DNA of 36,379 bases, taken from assembly GCA_945881945.1 (NCBI GenBank), contig CAMCVO010000012.1, forward strand, positions 1 to 36,379, in the 5' to 3' direction. The notes beneath the pieces were generated by a model. It saw nothing but the letters and a program-made list of their open reading frames with translations, was not told the origin of the DNA and made no database searches. Position numbers and translations under genes: made by a program. This stretch comes from Bifidobacterium breve. Its GTDB lineage: Bacteria; Actinomycetota; Actinomycetes; Nanopelagicales; Nanopelagicaceae. Numbering within the stretch: the first letter of the stretch is position 1; every line of letters starts with the position of its first letter. Below, in pieces: positions 6,512-18,015 of this stretch.

Positions 6512-7261
6512 ATGATACTTACTGACTTAGCTAACACAATTTTAGAATCAAAAGATATAACTCGAAAAACCCATAGTAATTACACAGGCGCACTTCGCCG
6601 CAACATTTATCCCACTTATGGAGCTAGAGAGGTAAAAACCCTGTCAAGGTTTGAGTTTGCTCAAACTCTTTCAAAACTACCGCCCCAAACCTCTTATCAA
6701 ACCTTGATGGCACTTAGATCAATTTTTCGCTCAGCCACAGAGCAGGGATTTATTGAAAACTCACCGGTTGAAGGCTTAAAACCGCCAAAAATTAAGGTGA
6801 GTGAGAGCAAGTTTATGACCTGGGACTACATTCTTGCGCAAAACTTTGGCCGTTATGACCAACAAATAAGATTTCTTGCCTTGCATGGACTTCGCTGGGG
6901 TGAGGCGGTAGTTTTAAAACAAAGTGATATTTATGATGGTTTTATTCATGTTACAAAATCCATTCATGGAGATACTAAATCCTCTGCGAGCCATAGAAAA
7001 GTTCCATACCTTGGTCAATTTAAACCTTTACCAAAGTCTCGAAACTCACTAGCAAAATCACTTGCAGCCCATGATGTAAATATTCACTCCCTTAGAAAAA
7101 CCTATGCCTACATCCTAAAACGGCATGGGATCCATGTCACTACGGCACAAAAGTTGTTAGGTCACGCCTCACCCATGATTACTCTCAAGATTTATACCCA
7201 AGTCCTGCAAGAGGAGATTAGTGAAGCTGGAGACATACTTAAAAACAAACTAAACCTATAG
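6512..7261 (+). CDS. Tyrosine recombinase / site-specific integrase
   Basis: A 249-residue integrase-fold recombinase that should cut and rejoin DNA through a tyrosine-DNA intermediate. The N-terminal SAM-like core-binding domain spans about 1-90. The catalytic domain has every expected residue: Arg128 (LHGLRWGE), Lys156 (DTKSS), His192 and Arg195 (HSLRKT), His218 (LLGHAS) and nucleophile Tyr228 (IYTQV). It is shorter than most phage integrases and close in size to XerC/D-like or integron-like enzymes, but it lacks their obvious signatures. It has its own promoter and lies 36 bp from the first of a pair of inverted repeats flanking surface-protein genes. No excisionase, plasmid or replication gene accompanies it. 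Target site unknown. Confidence 0.88.
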   Translation: MILTDLANTILESKDITRKTHSNYTGALRRNIYPTYGAREVKTLSRFEFAQTLSKLPPQTSYQTLMALRSIFRSATEQGFIENSPVEGLKPPKIKVSESKFMTWDYILAQNFGRYDQQIRFLALHGLRWGEAVVLKQSDIYDGFIHVTKSIHGDTKSSASHRKVPYLGQFKPLPKSRNSLAKSLAAHDVNIHSLRKTYAYILKRHGIHVTTAQKLLGHASPMITLKIYTQVLQEEISEAGDILKNKLNL

Positions 7262-7297
7262 TCCCCACATTATTTCCTTTCACCTCAGGTTGTTGAG

Positions 7298-7462
7298 CAC
7301 TCATTGCTAATGAGTATCCCGCTCCTACCAGCCAGATAAAAGATCGTCTTTTATTTGACTAAACGAAAGGAAAATAGTGAAAACTATTTCATTAAAGAAA
7401 GTATCTGCTGTTGCAGTTGCTTCGCTTGGATTCGGACTTTTGTCTGTGGTTCCGGCGCAGGC
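7298..7462 (+). repeat. Inverted repeat R5, left copy (surface-gene 5' block, 165 bp)
   Basis: This block matches the reverse complement of 15046-15210 over its full 165 bp without gaps. My hand alignment gives about seven mismatches, so roughly 96% identity. It covers a dyad ACTCATT-GCT-AATGAGT (7299-7315), a second dyad AGATAAAAGA-TCG-TCTTTTAT, the ribosome binding site and the complete signal peptide coding region. Similarity stops abruptly after the signal-peptide cleavage region. The mismatches cluster between the dyads and near the end of the signal peptide. Confidence 0.92.
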
Positions 7463-9275
7463 GGCTTACATAACAAGCAACGTAACATCGATTAACTTAA
7501 CTAGATCTACCACTACTCCAACCCAAGGCGCTGTGGTTGCTGTAAACATTGGAGCAGTTGTACCTTCTGCGACTCGCGTTGTTGGAGATCAAATGCTATT
7601 CCAAGCTGCATTTACCTCACTACCTGCAGGTGGAGAAGTAGCAATCAGTGGAGCTCTTGGTGTAGATGGAGCTGCAGCAAACACGACCGCAACTTACCCA
7701 ACAGGCTGGAATGGAACTGCTGTTGCCGGAGCTGGAACAGGCAAGCTTGAATTAGTAGCAGCTGCTACCACAGCTGGAAGCACTATCACTTCTAGTGCAA
7801 CAGTTGGATTTGGTTCATTTACATTTACGCCAAGTAAAGCTGGTGTTTATACGATGAAGGTCTGGCATGACACAACTGCTACTCCAGATGGTATTCAATC
7901 TGGAACTGAAATTAGCTCATCAATTTCTATCACAGTTGTTGCTGCTACACAACTATCTCCCTCAGCATCAATCATTCGCATGGGAGTTCCTACAACCCTT
8001 GCAGTTACCCAAAACAGTGCAACAACTACTTTAACCAATTACACTGTTGCAGAAGATGCCAAACCAAGATCTGCTGCTAAGGGTACTTCTGCTGCACCAA
8101 ACAACATTGCTCAAGTAGCAGTTGTTTTGGTTAATGGCAATGGCTCTGCTGCCGGTAACCTACACACAGTTACAGCTGATATCACAGGCTCTGGCCTAGT
8201 TCTTTGTAACAACAGTGGTACTGCAGCTGCCGGAACAGTGCGTTCATCAGTTTTGACGCTAACTGGTACCGATAACGTTGCATCTTGCCATATCAGTACC
8301 GATGGAACTGCCGGTCCTGGAACAGTAACAATCTCTGTTACAGACTCAGTATCTGGAACAAAAACAGTCCTAGGCACAAGATCATTCACCTCATATGGTG
8401 ATGTGGCTAAGATTGAAGTTTCAACTAAAAACTACACAATTGGCCGCGCTGGTTTCACAACTGGTAAAGCCGCTACCACTCGTGCTGCTGCAACAGAAGT
8501 TGGTAACTCAGCTGCTCCCGCAACAGTAACAACTACAAGTGGAACTGCAACTACACCTGCTTTCATTGTTAAGGCAACTGATTCACTTGGTCAAGCAGCG
8601 AATATCGCTGCTTCTGGAGTGCCAGCAATTGTTTCAGGTACTACAACTGTAGTAACAGGTGGAACCTGTTTACTAGATGATGGTGCTGCAACCGTTGGCT
8701 CAAGCACAAACGGAGTTGGATTCTATAACTGTGACTTCTCAACTTCAGCTGCTGCTGCTTCAGGAGGAAAATCCACATTAACAATTAGAACTGTTGATCC
8801 AGCTGGTGATGGAACTACATTCCTAACCACAACTCTTGATGTAACTGTTGGTGGATCTATTTCAACTGAAACCATTGCATTTGATAAAACATCATATGCA
8901 CCTGGTGAAGGAATGACGATCACTCGTACAGCTAAAGACTCTGCTGGAAACCCAGTATTTGATGGTGCAGCTGCACCAGCAATTACATTCAGCAAATCTG
9001 TTGGTGGAACTGCACCTGCAGCTAGCTTCTATGTTGGTGGCACAAGATCATCAACATCTTCTACTGGCGTACAGTCAGTATTTGCACCATCAGTACCTGG
9101 TGCTTTCACAGCAATTGCTACATCTGGTAACACTGCAGGATCTGCTTTATCTGCAGCTTCATCAGTAGCAGATGCTAATGCTGGCCTACTAACACAGATC
9201 GATGCATTAAATGCAAAGATCGTAGCTCTTAATGCTCTTATCGCTAAGATCATGAAGAAGCTAGGTGTTAAGTAA
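7377..9275 (+). CDS. Large secreted surface protein with Ig-like repeats (paralogue A)
   Basis: A 632-residue protein with a clear signal peptide (starts MKTISLKKVSAVAVASLGFG; cleavage likely after VVPAQA). The body is rich in Thr, Ser, Ala and Gly, with beta-strand-like repeats. A bacterial Ig-like segment begins near residue 501 (FDKTSYAPGEGMTITRTAKD). It ends in an amphipathic helix (LLTQIDALNAKIVALNALIA, then KIMKKLGVK). There is no LPXTG signal, lipobox or membrane anchor, so attachment may depend on the terminal helix. The GTG start at 7377 has AAAGGA upstream. A strong terminator follows. This resembles an S-layer-like or adhesin protein; no specific ligand can be inferred. Its ends are nearly identical to paralogue B at 13407-15131, but its middle is not. 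Confidence 0.8.
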   Translation: MKTISLKKVSAVAVASLGFGLLSVVPAQAAYITSNVTSINLTRSTTTPTQGAVVAVNIGAVVPSATRVVGDQMLFQAAFTSLPAGGEVAISGALGVDGAAANTTATYPTGWNGTAVAGAGTGKLELVAAATTAGSTITSSATVGFGSFTFTPSKAGVYTMKVWHDTTATPDGIQSGTEISSSISITVVAATQLSPSASIIRMGVPTTLAVTQNSATTTLTNYTVAEDAKPRSAAKGTSAAPNNIAQVAVVLVNGNGSAAGNLHTVTADITGSGLVLCNNSGTAAAGTVRSSVLTLTGTDNVASCHISTDGTAGPGTVTISVTDSVSGTKTVLGTRSFTSYGDVAKIEVSTKNYTIGRAGFTTGKAATTRAAATEVGNSAAPATVTTTSGTATTPAFIVKATDSLGQAANIAASGVPAIVSGTTTVVTGGTCLLDDGAATVGSSTNGVGFYNCDFSTSAAAASGGKSTLTIRTVDPAGDGTTFLTTTLDVTVGGSISTETIAFDKTSYAPGEGMTITRTAKDSAGNPVFDGAAAPAITFSKSVGGTAPAASFYVGGTRSSTSSTGVQSVFAPSVPGAFTAIATSGNTAGSALSAASSVADANAGLLTQIDALNAKIVALNALIAKIMKKLGVK

Positions 9276-9341
9276 TAATTAATCCGTAAGGATTAAATGG
9301 AAGAGGCCCGGCCCTGCTTTAATTAGCGGGGCCGGGCTTTT
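9186..9341 (+). repeat. Inverted repeat R3, left copy (surface-gene 3' block, 156 bp)
   Basis: Matches the reverse complement of 13341-13496 over 156 bp with no gaps and about three mismatches by hand alignment. It covers the last 29 or so codons (C-terminal helix), the stop codon, the spacer with CCGTAAGG and the whole terminator. The protein end is identical in both paralogues, and nearly all third codon positions are identical too, which points to recent copying or gene conversion rather than selection on protein sequence alone. Confidence 0.92.
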
Positions 9342-9345
9342 CTTA
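9306..9345 (+). terminator. Rho-independent terminator of surface paralogue A
   Basis: GCCCGGCCCTGC pairs with GCGGGGCCGGGC (one T-G wobble) around the loop TTTAATTA, giving a 12-bp GC-rich stem followed by TTTTCTTATTCTT. It lies 30 bp after the stop codon and is part of repeat R3. Confidence 0.9.
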
Positions 9346-9397
9346 TTCTTCCCACTCTTGAACACTGTTATTTGGCAGTTAGCATTTTCTGATTTGC

Positions 9398-9418
9398 TTA
9401 CTCATTGATGATGAGTAA
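9398..9418. promoter_or_regulatory. Dyad TTACTCAT-N5-ATGAGTAA, related to the surface-gene upstream dyad
   Basis: A perfect 8-bp inverted repeat around TGATG. The half-site ACTCAT...ATGAGT is the same as in the dyads upstream of both surface paralogues (7299-7315 and 15193-15209), which have the shorter centre TGCTA or TAGCA. It lies in the intergenic space between paralogue A and the HTH gene. It could be a binding site for a common regulator or recombinase; no function is shown. Confidence 0.45.
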
Positions 9419-9484
9419 ATGCATGTATGAAATACTCTAGGCAAATAGTTAATACTGGCTCTTAAAACTCTTAAAACTCGAAGT

Positions 9485-9525
9485 AAAGTAGCCCCAATTG
9501 CATTAGATACATCTAGGGCTACTTT
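9485..9525 (-). terminator. Stem-loop beyond the HTH gene
   Basis: AAAGTAGCCC and GGGCTACTTT form a 10-bp stem with a 21-nt loop. It lies 22 bp beyond the stop of the minus-strand gene at 9547 and is followed on that strand by a weak T stretch. It is probably that gene's terminator; the long loop makes it less certain. Confidence 0.5.
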
Positions 9526-9546
9526 GTAGCTAAAACTGCAAAAGTT

Positions 9547-9996
9547 TTATATCACTGCTGCTAGCCCGCCTGATGAAGATTCGGATTTGATCTTCTCAAA
9601 ATCAGGGTTATCAGAAGCCTTTTTTCCATATCTCTCTGGGAAACGACGTTCAAGCATCCATGCTGTTGCTCTCCAGTGCTCTGGTTTATCCCCCGCCTTC
9701 CTTAATCTTTGGAGCAGTTCAAACTCTGAGCACTCCGTAGCCTCTCGAACTCGTTCTACCAACTCAACATAAATTGCTTCAGCTCCTTCTTTTTTACCAA
9801 GGACAAGCCAGCGGTAAATAGTGCTTTCGCTTATATCAGTCAATAATGCAGCTCTGGCGATTGTTTGACCTTGAATTAACAGATCACAGAACTGCTCGAT
9901 CATCTCAGCTGTAAGTTTTGGTGGCCGGCCAATTGGATGCGGCCTGGAGCTTGTGTATTCACTTTTTTCGTACTGATCCAAAATGGAATTGGACAT
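9547..9996 (-). CDS. Phage-type helix-turn-helix protein, terminase small subunit-like
   Basis: A 149-residue protein. Residues about 22-70 carry GRPPKLTAEMIEQFCDLLIQ, then an HTH with ISESTIYRWLVLG. The C-terminal half has EHWRATAWMLERRFPERYG (about residues 107-125). The combination of GRPxKLT, an HTH ending in SESTxYRWL and an AWxLERRFPERYG tail is common in phage-encoded HTH proteins related to the terminase small subunit. No large terminase, portal or capsid gene is in the window, so this is either a phage relic or a domesticated DNA-binding protein. It could act as a regulator of the surrounding surface genes, but nothing in the sequence proves that. A stem-loop follows its stop. Confidence 0.7.
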   Translation of the reverse strand: MSNSILDQYEKSEYTSSRPHPIGRPPKLTAEMIEQFCDLLIQGQTIARAALLTDISESTIYRWLVLGKKEGAEAIYVELVERVREATECSEFELLQRLRKAGDKPEHWRATAWMLERRFPERYGKKASDNPDFEKIKSESSSGGLAAVI

Positions 9997-10221
9997 TATT
10001 GATATTTCCTTTTCTTATTTATCCTGATTGATTCACTCCGCCTCCAAGGCAAATCGCAACAAGGCTCAGAATTTCTGAGTTATGGCATAGAACAGATGTC
10101 CATATCGATTTATTCCCAACAGGATTGTTAATACAGCTAGCTAGATACAAGATACCGGGCTTCAACTAGCAATTAATTACAAGGCGCGATTGGAACTAAA
10201 CGAAAGCAATTTCCTCAATTA

Positions 10222-10264
10222 CAAAGAAAAACCCCCGGCAACCAAAAGTAGCCGGGGGTTTTAA
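10222..10264 (-). terminator. Bidirectional-looking terminator after the small secreted protein gene
   Basis: AACCCCCGGC and GCCGGGGGTT (10230-10239 and 10251-10260) make a 10-bp stem. It has a T-rich stretch on the minus-strand side and TTTTAAG on the plus side. It ends the minus-strand gene at 10277. The rest of 9997-10221 shows no gene on either strand. Confidence 0.85.
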
Positions 10265-10276
10265 GTTAACTCTTTT

Positions 10277-10663
10277 TTAGTAACCCTTTGCGCAAGCAAG
10301 TTCTACATAGGTTTTATATGTTTCAACCTCTGTAGTTTTACTATCTTTTTGTGCTGCTGACGCACTTGGATCAGCTTTAAACTTGTTCAACTCAATTACT
10401 GTGTCTTTGTAAATTTTATCAATGTCAATACAGGTTGAAGATACCCATACGAGCTTCTTAGCAGCAGAACCTTTAGCTATTGGGTTGGTTCTACACCTAT
10501 AGGTCTCAGTGGATCCTTTTGAGGTCACCTTTGTAGTCTTGTTCTTCTGCTTGGTTGTGCAGGAGGTGCCAGTTGTAATCTTGGCAGCAGCGCTAGCCTC
10601 AGTTGAAAGTAGTACTGATCCAAGAAGGGCTCCTACTAATACAAGTGCCTTAGTCTTTTTCAT
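10277..10663 (-). CDS. Small secreted protein, unknown function
   Basis: About 128 residues with a signal peptide starting MKKTKALVLVGALLGSVLLS and a cleavage region STEASAAA. The mature part is lysine- and threonine-rich, with cysteines in SCTTKQKNKTTKV, YRCRTN, SSTCIDID and VELACAKG, giving four Cys that could form two disulfides outside the cell. The ATG at 10663 has GGGAG just upstream and gives a normal signal peptide; an upstream ATG at 10675 would add MWEK. I do not recognise the family. It is divergent from the secreted repeat protein at 10840, and the 176 bp between them must hold both promoters. Confidence 0.72.
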   Translation of the reverse strand: MKKTKALVLVGALLGSVLLSTEASAAAKITTGTSCTTKQKNKTTKVTSKGSTETYRCRTNPIAKGSAAKKLVWVSSTCIDIDKIYKDTVIELNKFKADPSASAAQKDSKTTEVETYKTYVELACAKGY

Positions 10664-10804
10664 CTTCTCCCACATCCTTAACTCTTTTTTTAGGGGGTAA
10701 GAGGAGCATCTTTGTGAATGCTCTCCTTATGGGGTTTATTTTAGGGGTTAGGGGGTGCAAATATGAAGTGAGACAGGGGTGAATTGTCTGTGAATACCCC
10801 TGCA

Positions 10805-10840
10805 TTGTTTATATTCAAGGCTCAATTTATACTTATCTAA
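10805..10840 (+). promoter_or_regulatory. Consensus-like leaderless promoter of the repeat protein gene
   Basis: TTGTTT at 10805-10810 and TATACT at 10828-10833 are separated by 17 bp. Seven bases after the -10 box lies the A of the ATG at 10840. There is no Shine-Dalgarno, so the mRNA should start at the initiation codon. Confidence 0.75.
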
Positions 10841-11811
10841 TGCGTATTCGGATAGCAATTCTTAGCCTTTTGGCATCACTGCTTTCAACAGGATTTATGT
10901 TTACCTCAGCTCCAGTTGCAAATGCCGGGTGCCGTGATTACCCAGAGTCGGTAACACCAGCATGTGCTGCACAAAATCTTGCCGAAGAACAAGCAAGGCA
11001 AGCAGCAGCTGAAGTGCAACGTGCTCAAGATTTAGTTGATGCTGAAAATCGTGCCAAAGAACAAGCAGCGCGCGATTACGTTGCTAGCGGCTCTCGCCCT
11101 TGCAGTGTTTACCCAGCATCTATTACACCTGAATGTGCAGCACAGAATTTAGATTATGAAGCCAGTAAGCGAGTAGCTGCGGCAGAGCAACAGGTTAAAG
11201 ATCAGATTAAAGCTGAAGAGGCAGCCAAGGCAAGTGCAGAGATTGAATACATCCGCAATGGTTCTCGCCCCTGCACGCTTTATCCAGCATCAATTACGCC
11301 AGAGTGTTCTGCTGAAAACTTAGCGTATGAAACTAAGAAACAAGTGGCAGCGGCTGCAAAATTTCAAGAAGATATAATTGAGGCAGAACAAAAAGCACTT
11401 AAGCAAGCCCAGGATGATTACATCCGCAATGGCTCACGTCCTTGTTCTGTTTTCCCAGCATCAACAACACCAGAGTGCGCTGCAGCTAATCTACAATTTG
11501 AAGAGATTAAAAAGGTTGAGATTGCTGCCCTGACAGCTGCAAGAGAAGTAAGTACTAAATCTTTGATTACCACCAAGGATGAGAATGGCTCACTGCTTGT
11601 AGTCAGTAACATTCCAAAGGGAGTGGACTTACTAACTACAAAAGTAAAATTATTAAATAGCAAAGGTAAATTAGTCGATACCGGTGAGATTAGATATGAC
11701 GGTGCAGGTAAACCTTACTTTGTCTTTGATAAGCAGGTTGTTAAAGGAAACTACAAGATTGAGTTATCTATTCCAAAGAAGAAGGCTGCAACTATTTCGG
11801 TAAAGCTTTAA
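10840..11811 (+). CDS. Secreted protein with four 57-residue cysteine-paired repeats
   Basis: A 323-residue protein with a signal peptide (residues 1-29, ending VANAG). Four repeats follow, each with a motif of the form SRPCSVYPASITPECAAQNL. The paired cysteines are at 31/42, 88/99, 145/156 and 202/213, so the period is exactly 57 residues and each pair is 11 apart. Between motifs lie charged, alanine-rich stretches that should form long helices or coiled coils. The last 90 residues form a beta-rich domain with no cysteine. Each Cys pair probably closes a small disulfide loop between helices, giving a rod with a terminal head. The family is unknown to me. Its end overlaps the convergent gene by 4 bp, with no terminator between them. 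Confidence 0.8.
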   Translation: MRIRIAILSLLASLLSTGFMFTSAPVANAGCRDYPESVTPACAAQNLAEEQARQAAAEVQRAQDLVDAENRAKEQAARDYVASGSRPCSVYPASITPECAAQNLDYEASKRVAAAEQQVKDQIKAEEAAKASAEIEYIRNGSRPCTLYPASITPECSAENLAYETKKQVAAAAKFQEDIIEAEQKALKQAQDDYIRNGSRPCSVFPASTTPECAAANLQFEEIKKVEIAALTAAREVSTKSLITTKDENGSLLVVSNIPKGVDLLTTKVKLLNSKGKLVDTGEIRYDGAGKPYFVFDKQVVKGNYKIELSIPKKKAATISVKL

Positions 11812-13256
11812 GCAACAGCTACCTTTGTAAGCACCTTACTGCCCCGCTTGATCTGGATCTCATACCCAGAAAGATCAGCAGTTGTTGGCACAAACAATTC
11901 ACCTGTTTGATCAACAGTTAGTTTTAGATTTCTTGCTTTAGCACCCTTTTTAACAGCAACTACTTTAAGGGTTGAATCAATTGCAGGAAGTGAATCCTCC
12001 GTTGATAGCTGATATCCAGTTGCAGTCTTTACAGGATCAATATCAGCGGTTTTTAATGCTGCATCAACCTGCTTCTTTAGGTTTGCATCTTTAATAACAG
12101 AAGGTAGTTGAATACCAGTACTTAGCTCAACCCGCTCACCAGTAATATCGGTAATAACACCATTTTGAATACTTCTACTTACCTGCTTGCCATTAACAGT
12201 TGAGATTACTTTAAATATCCCACCTTGATAAATAACTTTATTAGCTGTTGTTGTGGTGAAGCCACCCATACTTTGACCAGTAATTGGATTTGGTGGCACT
12301 TGTAATACCAATTTGCAACCATCTGGGCATCCACCCTTTGCCCAAGAGGGCTCCTCAATCTTGCCTCCTAATTTGCCTTCATCCCCACATACAAAGCTTG
12401 AGCAATCAATGGTGTTGATAACAACACCATTTTTATCAACAACTGCCCATGTGCCCTGTTGTTGCTCAATTGGGGTGGTTGATCGATTTGCCGAAAGATC
12501 AAAAGCTTTAGATCCAATTAGATTGGCATCATTGGTGGTGCCATCTGGATTGATAACAGGTGGCAGATTAGATCGATAAACAACCTGTACCTCTTTGCCA
12601 GTTAGTGGATCAACACTTGATACAGATATTAAGCTGCCAGTAATTGGGCCATTACCAGCAAGGATGCTTCCATCACTGCCATAAAATGGTTTTATTGCAA
12701 CATCCTCACTCATTACAACACCATTAACAATTGGAATATAAAGACCATTTTTTGCATCCCATTGGTACTCAAGCTTTGTGCCATCAGCCCTTACCGGCAT
12801 ATCTAGTGGTGTGCCTGGCACAAATGGTGTGCCATCTTGGTTAAATAAAGGTGGAGCTAGTGGAACTAATCCTGCAAAGGGATCTATTGGCTGCGGGGAG
12901 GCATCCCCTGGCATTAGTGGCACATACATATTTGTCAGCGGGTCATACTCATAACGATATTGACCACCATCTGCTCTAACTGGCAACTCAATTGGTGTGC
13001 CAGGAATGAAAGGAGTGCCATCATTATTAAATAATGGTGGTGGCAGTGGGCCCGGGGATGGCGGAGTTGGTCCATTAATCCCAGTTAATGATTCAACTGG
13101 ACCACTAGCTGGTGGGGCATTAACACCTGGAATTATTGGAACATCAATACCTGGGATATTGGTAGGTCTGCCATCATTATTTGTGTCAGCATTGACAGGT
13201 GCCAGTAAACCAAGAACAACAGCAACTCCTACCAGCGCCCTAACCAAGATCTTCAT
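11808..13256 (-). CDS. Secreted proline-rich protein with internal repeat
   Basis: The start at 13256 gives a signal peptide (MKILVRALVGVAVVLGLLAP, cleavage near VNADT) and about 482 residues; the frame stays open to a TTG at 13292, but that would hide the signal peptide. The N-terminal third is rich in proline and contains two copies of PPLFNxDGTPFxPGTP, about 61 residues apart, each followed by LPVRADG or MPVRADG and a Tyr-rich stretch. Three Cys-containing loops (TIDCSSFVCGDEG, GGCPDGCKL) follow. The C-terminus is a small beta domain (SGYEIQIKRGSKVLTKVAV) comparable in style to the end of the convergent protein at 10840. Probably a cell-wall or surface structural protein; family not recognised. 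A GTTGC-TTAATA-GCAAC hairpin lies 22 bp upstream. Confidence 0.75.
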   Translation of the reverse strand: MKILVRALVGVAVVLGLLAPVNADTNNDGRPTNIPGIDVPIIPGVNAPPASGPVESLTGINGPTPPSPGPLPPPLFNNDGTPFIPGTPIELPVRADGGQYRYEYDPLTNMYVPLMPGDASPQPIDPFAGLVPLAPPLFNQDGTPFVPGTPLDMPVRADGTKLEYQWDAKNGLYIPIVNGVVMSEDVAIKPFYGSDGSILAGNGPITGSLISVSSVDPLTGKEVQVVYRSNLPPVINPDGTTNDANLIGSKAFDLSANRSTTPIEQQQGTWAVVDKNGVVINTIDCSSFVCGDEGKLGGKIEEPSWAKGGCPDGCKLVLQVPPNPITGQSMGGFTTTTANKVIYQGGIFKVISTVNGKQVSRSIQNGVITDITGERVELSTGIQLPSVIKDANLKKQVDAALKTADIDPVKTATGYQLSTEDSLPAIDSTLKVVAVKKGAKARNLKLTVDQTGELFVPTTADLSGYEIQIKRGSKVLTKVAVA

Positions 13257-13335
13257 ACCCAATATTGTGATTGATAGGTTGCTATTAAGCAACAGTAAGT
13301 AATCAAATTTCTGCTTAGAAAATGAAACTTTTGCC

Positions 13336-13376
13336 CATAAAAAAGCCCGGCCCCGCTAATTAAAGCGGGGCCGGGC
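13336..13376 (-). terminator. Rho-independent terminator of surface paralogue B
   Basis: GCCCGGCCCCGC pairs with GCGGGGCCGGGC around TAATTAAA, giving a 12-bp perfect stem. It is followed on the minus strand by a run of T (seen as A at 13339-13344). It is the counterpart of the terminator at 9306, within repeat R3. Confidence 0.92.
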
Positions 13377-13496
13377 CTCTTCTATTTAATCCTTACGGAT
13401 TAATTATTACTTAACACCTAGCTTCTTCATGATCTTAGCGATAAGAGCATTAAGAGCTACGATCTTTGCATTTAATGCATCGATCTGGGTTAGTAG
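13341..13496 (-). repeat. Inverted repeat R3, right copy (surface-gene 3' block, 156 bp)
   Basis: Reverse-complement partner of 9186-9341, same length, about three mismatches. It covers the terminator, the stop codon and the C-terminal helix codons of paralogue B. Confidence 0.92.
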
Positions 13497-15131
13497 AGCA
13501 GCATTACCATCTGTTACAGATGATGATGCTGTGATTGCAGATTTCGCAGTATTGCCTGATGTTGCAAGAGCTGAGAAAGCTCCAGCCACTGCTGGTGCAA
13601 ATACTGTTGGTGCAGTAGCAGAGGTTGACTTCTTGCCACCAACGTAAGTTGATGCACCTGGAGCAGAACCGCCTACAGCCTTGCTGAATGTTATTGCAGG
13701 AGATGCAGTTCCATCAGCTACTGGGTTACCTGAAGAGTCTTTAGCTGTAACAGTTACAACCATTGCCTCACCTGGTGCGTATGAAGTCTTATCAAATGAC
13801 AAGACCTCAGTAGCAACTGAGCCACCGATTGTCACTGTGACAACAGAGGTTAGGTATGCAACACCTAATACATCAGATGGATCAAGAATGCGGAATGTTA
13901 ATGTCGCAGTCTTGCCTGATGTTGCAGATGAAGGTGTTGAGAATGAAGCGTTATAGAAACCTGCTCCACCTGAACTGTATGTAGACCCAGCAGTGTCAGC
14001 GTTAATTGTGATTGCTGAGTTAACGACTGTTAGATCAGAGCTTACGGCTGAGATTGTTAGGCCGGTGACTGGGTTACCTGCTGAATCTGTAGCTTTAACA
14101 ATTACTGCAGGTGAGGCAGTAGTTGTACGGGCCGCACTTGCGTCACCAGTGGTTCCTCCACCAGCTGTACCGATTGTAAGTTTTGCATCAGCGACAATCT
14201 TTGCTACTGAACCGAAGAATGTAACGGTCTTTGTTGCAAGAGTTTGTGTTACACCGGCAGAGTTAGTTACCTCAACCTTGTATGTTCCAACGCCAGCAGT
14301 ACCGTCAGCACAAATAATGACGTTGTTAACAGCATCAGCAGTAAATGTAACTACGCGAGCATTTGTAGTTGCAGAGCACTGACCAGCTGTTGGTGTATCT
14401 GTTGTGTTAGTGAATGTGCTTGATAGAGCACCAGCGCCTGAAACGGAAACCGTTACAGTTCCTGGAGTAGTCATGGCAACATTCTTTGCATCAAATGCAT
14501 TGATCAAAATACTTCCAGCATTTGTAGTTGCAGCAGTTTTTGTAACATTAACTGGCAATAAATCAGTAGTTGAGGTTGCAATTGTTCCAGCATTACCTGC
14601 AACAATATAAGCCTGTGACAATGTGTTGCTGTAGCCCGAAGCTGGGTTAACAGTGATTGCTACTGGAATTGTAGCAGTCAAAGTAGCAGCAGCTCTTGTT
14701 GTACCAGCAGTTTCGTAAACAGTCAGTACATAGTTATATGTAGTAGTTACTGTTGGTGAAGGCAAGTTTCTTGTTGTAGTTACAGCTGTTACAGCAGTAC
14801 CAAGAGTCGTATCGCTTTGTACAATTACGCCATTGATAGACATATCAATGATGTTTGTGGTAACAAATGCTGCACCACTCTTGACAGTAAATATGATTGC
14901 TGCGCCAGCCGGAGCTGTAATTGTCTTAACTGCAGCAGCATTCACCTGTGTATCAAGAGTACGTGTAACGGTTGATGTGTCAGAAGTAATAGCTACTCCG
15001 CCAACAGTTGTTGCTGTATCCACCCAAACTGGAAGCGTGATTACTGCTTGCGCCGGAACAACGGACAAAAGTCCGAATCCAAGCGAAGCAACTGCAACAG
15101 CAGATACTTTCTTTAATGAAATAGTTTTCAC
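13407..15131 (-). CDS. Large secreted surface protein with Ig-like repeats (paralogue B)
   Basis: A 574-residue protein with the same signal peptide as paralogue A (MKTISLKKVSAVAVASLGFG..., cleavage after VVPAQA) and the identical C-terminal helix. Between them the sequence is recognisably related only toward the C-terminus (FDKTSYAPGEAMVVTVTAKD; AITFSKAVGGSAPGAS) and diverges strongly in the first 250 mature residues. The composition is Thr/Ala/Ser/Val-rich and beta-like. The GTG start at 15131 has AAAGGA upstream. The gene lies downstream of and on the same strand as the sigma-factor fusion, with 176 bp between them containing its own 5' block. Attachment and ligand are unknown. It is probably a second allele-like version of the same surface layer or adhesin component. 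Confidence 0.8.
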   Translation of the reverse strand: MKTISLKKVSAVAVASLGFGLLSVVPAQAVITLPVWVDTATTVGGVAITSDTSTVTRTLDTQVNAAAVKTITAPAGAAIIFTVKSGAAFVTTNIIDMSINGVIVQSDTTLGTAVTAVTTTRNLPSPTVTTTYNYVLTVYETAGTTRAAATLTATIPVAITVNPASGYSNTLSQAYIVAGNAGTIATSTTDLLPVNVTKTAATTNAGSILINAFDAKNVAMTTPGTVTVSVSGAGALSSTFTNTTDTPTAGQCSATTNARVVTFTADAVNNVIICADGTAGVGTYKVEVTNSAGVTQTLATKTVTFFGSVAKIVADAKLTIGTAGGGTTGDASAARTTTASPAVIVKATDSAGNPVTGLTISAVSSDLTVVNSAITINADTAGSTYSSGGAGFYNASFSTPSSATSGKTATLTFRILDPSDVLGVAYLTSVVTVTIGGSVATEVLSFDKTSYAPGEAMVVTVTAKDSSGNPVADGTASPAITFSKAVGGSAPGASTYVGGKKSTSATAPTVFAPAVAGAFSALATSGNTAKSAITASSSVTDGNAALLTQIDALNAKIVALNALIAKIMKKLGVK

Positions 15132-15210
15132 TATTTTCCTTTCGTTTAGTCAGATAAAAGACGATCTTTTATCTGGCTGGTGAGTGCGGGATACTCATTA
15201 GCAATGAGTG
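15046..15210 (-). repeat. Inverted repeat R5, right copy (surface-gene 5' block, 165 bp)
   Basis: Reverse-complement partner of 7298-7462, same length, about seven mismatches. In this copy the second dyad is perfect (CAGATAAAAGA-TCG-TCTTTTATCTG, 11-bp stem), while in the left copy one arm carries a substitution. The ACTCATT dyad is at 15193-15209. Beyond 15210 the two copies share nothing obvious, so the repeat stops sharply at the ACTCATT dyad. Confidence 0.92.
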
Positions 15211-15307
15211 ACCCTTTTCCCACCGGTTGAAATGAAGAGCACGTGCTTCCTCATCTCGTATCCCTACCGCCTATAGGAGGCAATAGGAAAGCTAGTTTTG
15301 GTAATCG

Positions 15308-16681
15308 TTAAATTACCCCTTCAGATTGTGTTGAGCCTGTGAACAGGATCTGAGCTGACTGAGCGAGAATCTCTAACCCGTCTGCCGATACCTTAATTCT
15401 AACATTTATAGCTGATGGGCTTTGACCATCTGAGCCTGTGTTTGCCAGTTTTAGCGAGGTAATGATCAATTTTGAGCCATCTGAGCCAGTACTCACTGAT
15501 TGCTCAGTTGAGGTGATTACCGCTGGGGTGTTGGCAGGGGCAAATAGGGGCAAGATGGTGGCGGTCAATTTGCCATCAACATAGAAGAGATCTTGGGATA
15601 GAAGAAGATCAACCCCATTTTGGCTCACCTTAAAGATTGAAGATGATGATTCAGTTGAAAGATTTGGGAACTTGATCATCTGCGCATTGGCGGTGACTTG
15701 AGATCCTAAGTTTGAAGAGAAGCCAATTGGTGTGCCGGAGGCATCAAGTCCTGCCCAGTTATATACCACAACTGCTTGGCGAAGGGATGAAATCTGAGAG
15801 GAGACAACCTTGATCTGATCTTGGAAGGCAGCAAGTGCAATTGAGATTTCAGGATCAACTGAATCAACTTGATCAGAAGTTGCCTCATCACCTGTTGATT
15901 TATCAGTTGTTGATTTATCACTTGGCAATGAGATTGCTGAGCCATCTGGTGTTACAACACCTTCACGGCCAGTTAATGTATTAAAGCCAAGGAAGGCAGC
16001 AACAACAAGAATAAGAGATAGGGCAGCCTTTGATGATTTTGCAGCGATCTCTGCTGCTTTTTTGTAGGTGGTAGAAAGGGCATCTAATGCAGTTAAACCA
16101 CGCTTTTCATCAACAATAAGTGTAGAAAGAATTTTGCGCATTGAGGCACGAGCACGTGAGACTGTGTGACGAACAGCAGACTCTTTAATACCAAGCTCGG
16201 CAGCAATCTCTGAAGTTGAGCGGCCCTCAACCTCCCACATCACAAGAGCTGCGCGCTCTGCTGGGGATAGAAGTGAAAGTGCTTGGCGAATAATTACCGC
16301 ATCAGCTGCTGCTGAGATAACCGCTTCATGATCTCCTGATACCTGATATGTTGCTTCAACCTCAGCTTGAGCATCATCGATAACCACAAGATTTGGACGA
16401 CGTCCCTCCATGCGGAATAGATCGATGCATAGGTTTTCGATTGTGCGGTGGATATAAGCAAGTGCGTGATCAGTTGATTCAAGTTCAGGGGCGGCTAACA
16501 TAAATTTAATTAGCGCATCCTGGGTAATCTCCTCAGCTTTTGCCGAGTCTTTTAGAACACGATTTGCATGGGATAAAAACTCACTGCGGTGGTTTGTGTA
16601 GAAAGCGCCAAGCTCAGTAACAGACCAGGCTTGTGGTGAAACAGCCTCGACCTGAGTCTTGGTAGAACGCTTAAATGCCAC
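15308..16681 (-). CDS. ECF-type sigma factor fused to a membrane helix and extracytoplasmic domain
   Basis: A 457-residue protein. Residues about 25-95 match sigma region 2 (SAKAEEITQDALIKFM; LCIDLFRMEGRRP), and about 132-186 match region 4 with its HTH (LSPAERAALVMWEVEGRSTS; IAAELGIKESAVRHTVSRAR). A basic linker leads to one membrane helix (about 219-236, AALSLILVVAAFLGFNTL), then an acidic Ser/Thr linker (TTDKSTGDEATSDQ) and about 190 residues of beta-like, presumably external sequence. ECF sigma factors are normally soluble, about 180-200 residues, and controlled by a separate anti-sigma factor; none is adjacent. The fusion suggests a sigma factor held at the membrane and released or gated by its own sensor domain. 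The GTG start at 16681 has AAGGA upstream. The neighbouring surface genes are obvious candidate targets; that is inference. Confidence 0.82.
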   Translation of the reverse strand: MAFKRSTKTQVEAVSPQAWSVTELGAFYTNHRSEFLSHANRVLKDSAKAEEITQDALIKFMLAAPELESTDHALAYIHRTIENLCIDLFRMEGRRPNLVVIDDAQAEVEATYQVSGDHEAVISAAADAVIIRQALSLLSPAERAALVMWEVEGRSTSEIAAELGIKESAVRHTVSRARASMRKILSTLIVDEKRGLTALDALSTTYKKAAEIAAKSSKAALSLILVVAAFLGFNTLTGREGVVTPDGSAISLPSDKSTTDKSTGDEATSDQVDSVDPEISIALAAFQDQIKVVSSQISSLRQAVVVYNWAGLDASGTPIGFSSNLGSQVTANAQMIKFPNLSTESSSSIFKVSQNGVDLLLSQDLFYVDGKLTATILPLFAPANTPAVITSTEQSVSTGSDGSKLIITSLKLANTGSDGQSPSAINVRIKVSADGLEILAQSAQILFTGSTQSEGVI

Positions 16682-16822
16682 GAGTAGTGTCCTTCTTTAA
16701 CCGGTTTTGTCTTTCAGATGCAGCCGTCGCCGCCTCTACTGACTACTACGAAATAGGTGGGTATTTGTCGCTGATCAGGGACAAATCGGACATTTAATCC
16801 AACCTACCCCTTACTTTGTGCG

Positions 16823-16895
16823 TGGGCCCTGTCGGGATCGAACCGACGACCCACGGATTAAAAGTCCGTTGCTCTACCGACTGAGCTAAAGGCCC
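16823..16895 (-). tRNA. tRNA-Lys (TTT)
   Basis: A 73-nt minus-strand cloverleaf. Acceptor GGGCCTT pairs with AGGGCCC (one wobble), D arm GCTC/GAGC, anticodon stem ACGGA/TCCGT with loop CTTTTAA (anticodon TTT), and T arm GTCGG-TTCGATC-CCGAC. It lies upstream of the sigma-factor fusion at the far edge of the accessory region. No partial tRNA copy marking an attachment site was found near the recombinase. Confidence 0.97.
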
Positions 16896-17235
16896 CTGAT
16901 TTTTTTATCGCCCCGTATCTAAGCACCATCAAGAATAAATACCTATTTTTTAGATACCTATATATAAAGATGTATCACTTTTTACTGCCAGGCTTATAAA
17001 TAGGGTCAAATCCTACCGCCAAAATCAGCTTTTGGTATTGGCCAGGTGATTTTGGGCATGCTGTGAAGGATTAGTAGCACTTGAATTGTGGTTTTAAGAA
17101 AATACCAGCTTGGCGCAGGTGATCACCTTTTTTTCTCTTTCTAAGCCAGCTGGCTATTGCCATTACAATTTCAAGAGATCAGCGCAGCTGTGATTGGGTG
17201 AGTAAAAATAAAAAATAAGGGATGAGATTTAAACA
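16896..17235. other. Intergenic region without a supported gene
   Basis: 340 bp between tRNA-Lys and the aldose epimerase gene. It is AT-rich at the tRNA side (TATATATAAAG). It contains an inverted repeat CCAAAATC...GATTTTGG near 17020-17055 and a T-rich stretch near 17125. The upstream region of the epimerase carries AAGGGATGAG as a weak ribosome binding site. Only very short frames exist. Confidence 0.6.
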
Positions 17236-18015
17236 ATGTTAAATATTGATGGGGATCAGATCTCAATTGCAATTGATTTAGATCAAGGCGCCCGCCTTGC
17301 CTCTTTGCAATGGCGGGATATGGAGTTTGTTACCCCATTTGCTGGGGATGTTTTAAATTGGGGTTGGTATGCGATGGCGCCCTGGGTTGGCCGGATAAAG
17401 GATGGTTTGATTACAAATAGTAGGCAGGATCAATTTCAACTGCCAACAACATTTATGCCACCCCATGCCATCAATGGCTTTGGCTTTTTCTCCTCCTGGC
17501 AAGATTTAGGTTCTGGCAAACAGTTGCTGGAGCTGCCACCACCATTTGCTGGCGCGCAGGTAATACAAAGCTTTGAAGTTTTAGATGATGGTCTTCGTTG
17601 GTCCCTTGAGTATGAAGATAATGGTTGTGATCTGCCATTCTCACTTGGTTTTCACCCATGGATTGCCAGAGATATTGGTAAGTCAGAAAATGCTGTCCTA
17701 TCTTTTTCAGCTAATCAGATATTACTTTGTGATAGTGATTATGTGCCAAGTGGAAAGTTTATAAAGCCAACCCAATCTGATATGGACAAACCATTAGATG
17801 ACACATTTACCCAAAGCTCAGGGGTGGCAGAAATTGTTTGGGCTGGGGCGGTGAGAATGCGAATTGAATCAGATGCCCCTTACTGGCAGATCAATACCCA
17901 AGATGAGACAGGTATCTGCATTCAACCAATGAGCGCACCGCCAAATGGGCATTTACTTGGCATAACTGGTGAGCCATATATTGAGGCGCTCTTTACATTT
18001 ACTGAGGATTTTTAA
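17236..18015 (+). CDS. Aldose 1-epimerase family protein, probable altered active site
   Basis: A 259-residue beta-sandwich protein of the galactose mutarotase superfamily, which normally interconverts alpha and beta anomers of sugars. Family features: WGWYAMAPWVGRIKDG (residues about 42-57), MPPHAINGFG with the first His (about 75-84), SLGFHPWI with the conserved His-Pro (about 136-143), LDDTF and, near the end, ICIQPMSAPPNG. In active family members that last motif carries the general-base glutamate (E-P-M-T-x-P-P-N type); here it reads Q-P-M-S-A-P-P-N, so Glu is replaced by Gln. The protein may be inactive, bind sugars only, or use another base. The 3' end overlaps the convergent mshD gene by 17 bp. 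Confidence 0.82.
   Translation: MLNIDGDQISIAIDLDQGARLASLQWRDMEFVTPFAGDVLNWGWYAMAPWVGRIKDGLITNSRQDQFQLPTTFMPPHAINGFGFFSSWQDLGSGKQLLELPPPFAGAQVIQSFEVLDDGLRWSLEYEDNGCDLPFSLGFHPWIARDIGKSENAVLSFSANQILLCDSDYVPSGKFIKPTQSDMDKPLDDTFTQSSGVAEIVWAGAVRMRIESDAPYWQINTQDETGICIQPMSAPPNGHLLGITGEPYIEALFTFTEDF

Follow-up and report, generated by a model that had tools for sequence, protein, structure and literature searches.

Inverted surface-protein genes with matched palindromic sites and a linked tyrosine recombinase: a candidate coat-gene switch in a Nanopelagicales genome

In Lactobacillus acidophilus the genes slpA and slpB share a stretch of the chromosome about 6 kb long, and the passages on it in PMC6015585 and PMC7858073 (after Boot 1996) describe one gene at an expression site and the other as silent and promoterless, with inversion of the segment exchanging the active gene. 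This appears to be the closest described system to a locus found in a 36,379-nt stretch of DNA (termed the window; contig CAMCVO010000012.1 of GenBank assembly GCA_945881945.1, family Nanopelagicaceae), which is contig 12 of a 1.1-Mb genome in 25 contigs. The size, G+C content and genes of this genome agree with the freshwater acI group (Ca. Nanopelagicales), and it is probably a Ca. Nanopelagicus. The window likewise has two inverted genes, here for surface proteins and termed SA and SB, which have their 5′ and 3′ ends in common but differ in their cores. It differs from slpA/slpB in having a linked tyrosine recombinase gene (int), a 27-bp site at the boundary of the homology, one side that is marked by a sigma-factor gene and a GCACGTGC element, and cores whose relationships cross genus borders.

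The closest parallels with respect to the recombinase appear to be RecV/cwpV and Xer1/Vpma. In Clostridioides difficile, the gene of the cell-wall protein CwpV is associated with RecV, a XerC/D-type tyrosine recombinase, and with imperfect 21-bp inverted repeats; a 195-bp leader segment inverts, the promoter is upstream of the switch, a single gene is turned ON or OFF and the recombinase gene is unlinked (PMC2784873). The window resembles this system in its tyrosine recombinase, its inverted repeats, a putative switch element in the 5′ leader region and a promoter that would lie upstream of the switch, but here the segment contains whole alternative genes, and the recombinase gene is a linked one. 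In the tiny genome of Mycoplasma agalactiae, the Xer-type site-specific recombinase Xer1 varies the Vpma surface proteins (PMC5634654). Vpma is a multigene lipoprotein family, whereas the window has a tail-to-tail pair with shared 3′ ends. In Campylobacter fetus a promoter-bearing segment inverts among many sap homologues, a process that has been linked to RecA; the conserved ends, variable cores and inversion-based antigenic variation of sap are a further likeness. The sap S-layer (surface layer) locus is highly variable (PMC6530492). A search of the open literature for S-layers in Nanopelagicales and for S-layer switches with a tyrosine recombinase yielded no description of the system presented here.

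The proposed reading is that of a site-specific inversion switch for the major secreted surface protein of the cell, by which one or the other surface gene would come to occupy a single expression site, together with recombination that would homogenise the ends and shuffle the cores. SA and SB face each other between inverted copies of the 27-bp palindromic site, and the recombinase (Int) would recombine the two inverted 5′ sites and thereby flip a segment of about 7.9 kb (7.3–15.2 kb). The flip would put either SA or SB behind the fixed side with the sigma gene and GCACGTGC; SB is there in this assembly, and the other gene would be parked away from it. A separate recombination between the shared ends would homogenise these and bring in new cores. 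The inversion itself is suggested by the arrangement of the sequences described below.

The 5′ ends of SA and SB share a block of 165 nt that is inverted between the two genes and has 7 mismatches (96% identity), and the 3′ ends share an inverted block of 156 nt with 3 mismatches; these blocks agree in position and mismatch count with those of the initial annotation (Table 1). The 3′ similarity fades into the gene (287 nt at 86% and a 641-bp alignment at 76%). All other inverted repeats in the window are far weaker, except for a 199-nt continuation of the SA/SB pair at 71%. The coding middles, which had been described as related but different, are strongly diverged: the first two thirds display about 30%–55% identical columns per 50-column block and the last third 60%–78%. 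The proteins have an overall identity of 48%, with identical 29-residue signal peptides and an identical stretch of 29 residues at the end. A search of their own genome shows SA and SB to be the sole copies. The proteins have a signal peptide, a beta-rich prediction and a C-terminal helix, and no Pfam family was found for them at threshold. They may be coat proteins of the S-layer type.

The site at the 5′ ends is a 27-bp palindrome, CTCAT-N5-ATGAG, with two 11-bp arms around a 5-bp spacer. The 5′ homology begins at this site in five of the six pairs with a visible 5′ end; in G165 its start lies roughly 15 bp outward of the site (G numbers denote the genomes compared, and L numbers the loci read in the analysis). 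The motif has 29 matches in 1.12 Mb of loci, as compared with 0–3 in Markov-generated sequence. Its presence in leaders is all-or-nothing, i.e. 16 leaders on the sigma side score 16 or more and the remainder 0.9 or less, and nearly all strong leader sites are 83–87 nt upstream of the start codon. Because of this all-or-nothing presence, a rank test of the int-free leaders as a group displays no enrichment in sites.

Tyrosine recombinases need matched spacers and tolerate outer arms that differ. Sites with matched spacers are present in the window pair and in five other pairs: the spacer is the same within a pair and differs between genomes (TGCTA in the window; GGTTC, GACTT and GACAT elsewhere). 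Within pairs the inner arms match or nearly match, and the outer arms usually differ. This is thus the pattern predicted by site-specific recombination. Sites with another spacer follow some terminators, as they do downstream of SA, in copies b and c of G195 and at the start of a G161 contig; in the two G195 copies the 3′ homology also ends at the 3′ site.

A second palindrome in the leader has a 5-nt loop (ATCGT; AAATT in others), is just upstream of the ribosome-binding site and is also present in int-free genomes. It is likely a hairpin of the 5′ untranslated region (5′-UTR); an Rfam search gave nothing at curated thresholds. Two further observations concern the sites. In the int-free genome G131 (L131:4957-4983 and 7091-7117), a part of the 5′ site comprising its outer arm and its spacer (AATACCCTCTCATGACATAT) is repeated in inverted form right behind the terminator, which is like a recombination scar. 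At L093:3036-3451 a gene for a 98-aa (amino acid) secreted protein near an int has a palindromic site on either side, the two differing in their spacers, as if sites could bound further small genes as well.

The GCACGTGC element is part of an imperfect palindrome with covarying flanks. Of 67 sigma-side leaders, 55 have it in the interval from the sigma gene to the surface gene and, if there is a site, upstream of that site. In every pair examined it is present upstream of the sigma-side copy only; the sigma gene of the GCACGTGC-bearing copy in G165 is off the contig. The window element is outside the would-be inverted segment, so that an inversion would exchange the gene standing behind it. 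The side with the sigma gene and GCACGTGC may be a single expression site, from which only the sigma-side copy would be expressed.

The window int is intact, with the catalytic residues R-K-H-R-H-Y all present. An alignment of 22 sequences (the window and 21 homologues) shows conservation of R (in HGLR), K, H-x-x-R, GH and Y. Homologues were found in 24 of the 296 genomes of the same family that were used for comparison. A tree with the 21 homologues separates a clade of tRNA-island sequences from those at the surface locus (support 1.0). The former are ordinary island integrases at tRNA-Arg or tRNA-Lys, and the int of G147 also adjoins tRNA-Arg; the second group is located at the surface locus. 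The window int was also considered as an ordinary tRNA-island integrase, and this was rejected for the present copy by the tree and the neighbourhood. In G018 (L033:5313-6051), an int homologue is inverted with respect to that of the window and adjoins a surface gene whose leader is the same but whose core is not; this int looks broken, as its N- and C-terminal pieces are in separate frames and a stretch is missing.

The inverted-pair layout is a recurring arrangement, present in at least seven other species. An inverted second surface gene with int between or beside the copies is found in G060, G119, G101, G165, G153 and G195 (G195 has three surface copies, one of them in direct repeat), and G231 shows a 3′ inverted repeat and int at a contig edge. 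The pair in G060, the genome of which is one single contig, speaks against an artefact of assembly. The pairs in these relatives have identities of 83%–100% at the 5′ ends and 79%–93% at the 3′ ends; most of their cores are unalignable or about 67% alike, and those of G153 align over the full length at 69%. An integron-type cassette array was considered and does not describe these loci, in which the copies are inverted and not in direct repeat, save for one of the three in G195.

All loci with inverted pairs carry int, and no inverted pair was found in the 41 sigma loci that lack int and show 3 kb or more past the surface gene (Fisher p = 9e-8, for six int loci with sigA in view vs. the 41 int-free loci). 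On the strength of this association, Int would be the probable catalyst of the proposed inversion. The tyrosine recombinase had been named as a candidate actor at the outset, and the complete association with pairs, the separate int clade and the palindromic sites at the homology boundary all speak for it.

The normal state in the family is a sigma-factor gene followed by one gene for a secreted, immunoglobulin-like surface protein. The sigma protein has a strong match in 91 of the 296 genomes, and the loci fetched show one long secreted gene directly downstream of the sigma gene wherever the contig extends far enough. Its architecture is a signal peptide of the type MSTKTTFKRVALVAVAALG, a variable core and a C-terminal end such as LTNLVIKIQKKVKA. 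In three complete genomes whose sigma genes are 94% identical, the leaders have 96%–99% identity, the last 150 bp 100% and the cores 48%–57%. Close relatives thus keep the ends around cores of 48%–60% identity, and exchangeable cores between fixed ends are a general property of the surface gene. A full-length surface profile found no match in 24 genus-mates, because the cores differ, and nothing was confirmed with it in the genome collection; the exact leader pattern matches the G018 record only.

In nearly all pairs, a leader or 3′ end is most similar to that of its own partner gene; the exception is G165, with ends nearly tied with or beaten by those of G237. For each of the two window cores the nearest one belongs to another genus (G195b), and the visible part of the G018 core is closest to G195a. 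As the ends match their own partner best and the cores match other genera best, ends and cores have separate histories. The cassette design with exchangeable cores that the initial annotation put forward is supported by this comparison, in which different cores are found between the same ends and match other genera better than their own. Its proposal of recent conversion of the ends is supported by the homogenisation, but the identity of the ends, taken alone as proof, is weakened by the conservation of the ends between species.

Several observations weigh against the inversion switch. The window int is just outside the inverted segment, although it is inside the segment in most other loci. 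Five int-free loci with full context still have the 5′ site, which may therefore have another role and as RNA could form a hairpin. No 3′ site was detected for SB, the hits scored with the site model were those used to build it, and an AlphaFold2 model of SB from 9 sequences has a mean pLDDT (predicted local distance difference test) of 44, too poor for the S-layer question. The long homologous ends would also permit RecA recombination without Int. In favour of the switch, the contig of G153 breaks off within both leaders, a little beyond where the site would be, and four further contigs have an end no more than about 110 bp from a site. This is expected if both orientations coexist but is only suggestive, as short-read assemblies are expected to break at repeats anyway. 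Because of the position of int, the sites in int-free loci and the possible action of RecA, the inversion switch is held with moderate confidence, as the probable explanation. A wider form of it is rather doubtful, i.e. a natural recombinase-mediated cassette exchange, in which 5′ and 3′ sites with different spacers would bound the surface genes and Int would invert, swap and import coat genes.

RecA-type homologous recombination and gene conversion could account for inversion, homogenisation and core swaps together, with int as a passenger or a remnant of the arrival of the second copy. Blocks of 150–340 bp at 79%–98% suffice for this, and int-free single-gene genomes also show conserved ends and replaced cores; this explanation does not, however, predict a 5′ homology that starts at a palindrome, a matched spacer or differing outer arms, and int and inverted pairs co-occur completely. 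It is considered somewhat unlikely. The palindrome may instead be an operator or a 5′-UTR RNA hairpin, with int using the locus as an insertion hot spot and having brought the second gene once, with no ongoing switching. The sites in int-free single-gene leaders, the second leader palindrome in many genomes, the related integrases of ordinary islands at tRNA genes and the terminase-small-subunit-like gene in the gap of the window all fit this. A single insertion, however, would leave direct and not inverted repeats, sites are also found behind terminators (G195 and the window), and the ends have been homogenised separately in each genome, which makes this explanation improbable. An ancient inverted duplication, with ends under strong constraint, cores that evolve fast and no recombination, is already disfavoured and very improbable: leaders and C-termini are indeed strongly conserved between species, but the ends are closest to the partner in the same genome, the cores are closest to other genera, and cores are replaced at a sigma-gene identity of 94%.

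The features of the locus are listed in Table 1. It is bordered on the left by tRNA genes and sua5, and on the right by the gene for a sigma factor of the extracytoplasmic function (ECF) type and tRNA-Lys. The four genes which had been noted between SA and SB are present. The terminase-small-subunit-like gene has no large subunit alongside and is isolated between SA and SB; it is possibly a remnant of a phage satellite. When window positions 15308-17236 are compared with L032:7420-18001, with the complete genus-mate G003 as reference, the block of tRNA-Lys, sigma gene and surface gene is inverted between sua5 and galM.

Table 1. Features of the surface-protein locus (positions in the window).
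Feature	Position	Strand	Remarks
Tyrosine recombinase (int), surface-locus subfamily	6512..7261	+	249 aa; PF00589 E 2e-11; phrog_1 integrase E 6e-30
Palindromic site A, TGAGCACTCAT-TGCTA-ATGAGTATCCC	7294..7320	+	5′ homology begins here
5′ block A	7298..7462	+	leader, ribosome-binding site, signal peptide
Second leader palindrome, AGATAAAAG-ATCGT-CTTTTATTT	7334..7356	+	counterpart at 15152-15174
Surface protein gene SA	7377..9275	+	632 aa; signal peptide, variable core, conserved C-terminus
3′ block A	9186..9341	+	C-terminal codons and G+C-rich terminator hairpin
Palindromic site downstream of SA, CTCAT-TGATG-ATGAG	9395..9421	+	spacer differs from site A
Terminase-small-subunit-like helix-turn-helix protein	9547..9996	-	phrog_4102 E 4e-29; Pfam HTH_7, Sf6_terminase
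Small secreted protein, no family	10277..10675	-	
Secreted protein, three repeats at 171-bp spacing	10840..11811	+	homologues beside int in G195 and G161
Secreted protein	11808..13292	-	homologue in G195 locus
3′ block B	13341..13496	-	
Surface protein gene SB	13407..15131	-	574 aa; sigma gene directly upstream
5′ block B	15046..15210	-	
Palindromic site B, spacer TGCTA as in site A	15188..15214	-	inverted relative to site A
GCACGTGC element in imperfect palindrome	15239..15246	-	upstream of SB, sigma side only
ECF-type sigma factor, long C-terminal extension	15308..16681	-	conserved upstream neighbour of surface gene

A relative of the surface protein is found in phage contigs of IMG/VR (L014-L029, e.g. 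L015:8882-10486). It has a chain length of 507–534 aa, a signal peptide and the C-terminal sequence LIAKIMKKL(G/K)IK, a motif that it has in common with the surface protein, and its gene immediately follows that of the terminase large subunit. This protein may alter the surface of the infected cell, possibly as a coat mimic or a superinfection-exclusion protein. The IMG/VR contigs that carry it display no palindromic site, the site pattern gave a single chance match in viral contigs (inside a gene of a 202-kb contig), the exact leader pattern is absent from the viral contigs searched, and a tblastn search of cultured phages yielded no match.

Actinobacteria of the Nanopelagicales type are abundant in lakes worldwide; their genomes are streamlined and lack CRISPR-Cas, and phage pressure has been given as the cause of their microdiversity (PMC10202952). 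Phage or grazer pressure may drive the proposed switch. If true, the switching of a coat gene by a dedicated recombinase would provide a concrete and testable mechanism for this microdiversity, and it would also tie in with phages that bear their own relative of the coat protein. If the cassette exchange were true, one of the most abundant groups of freshwater bacteria would have a dedicated engine for coat switching.

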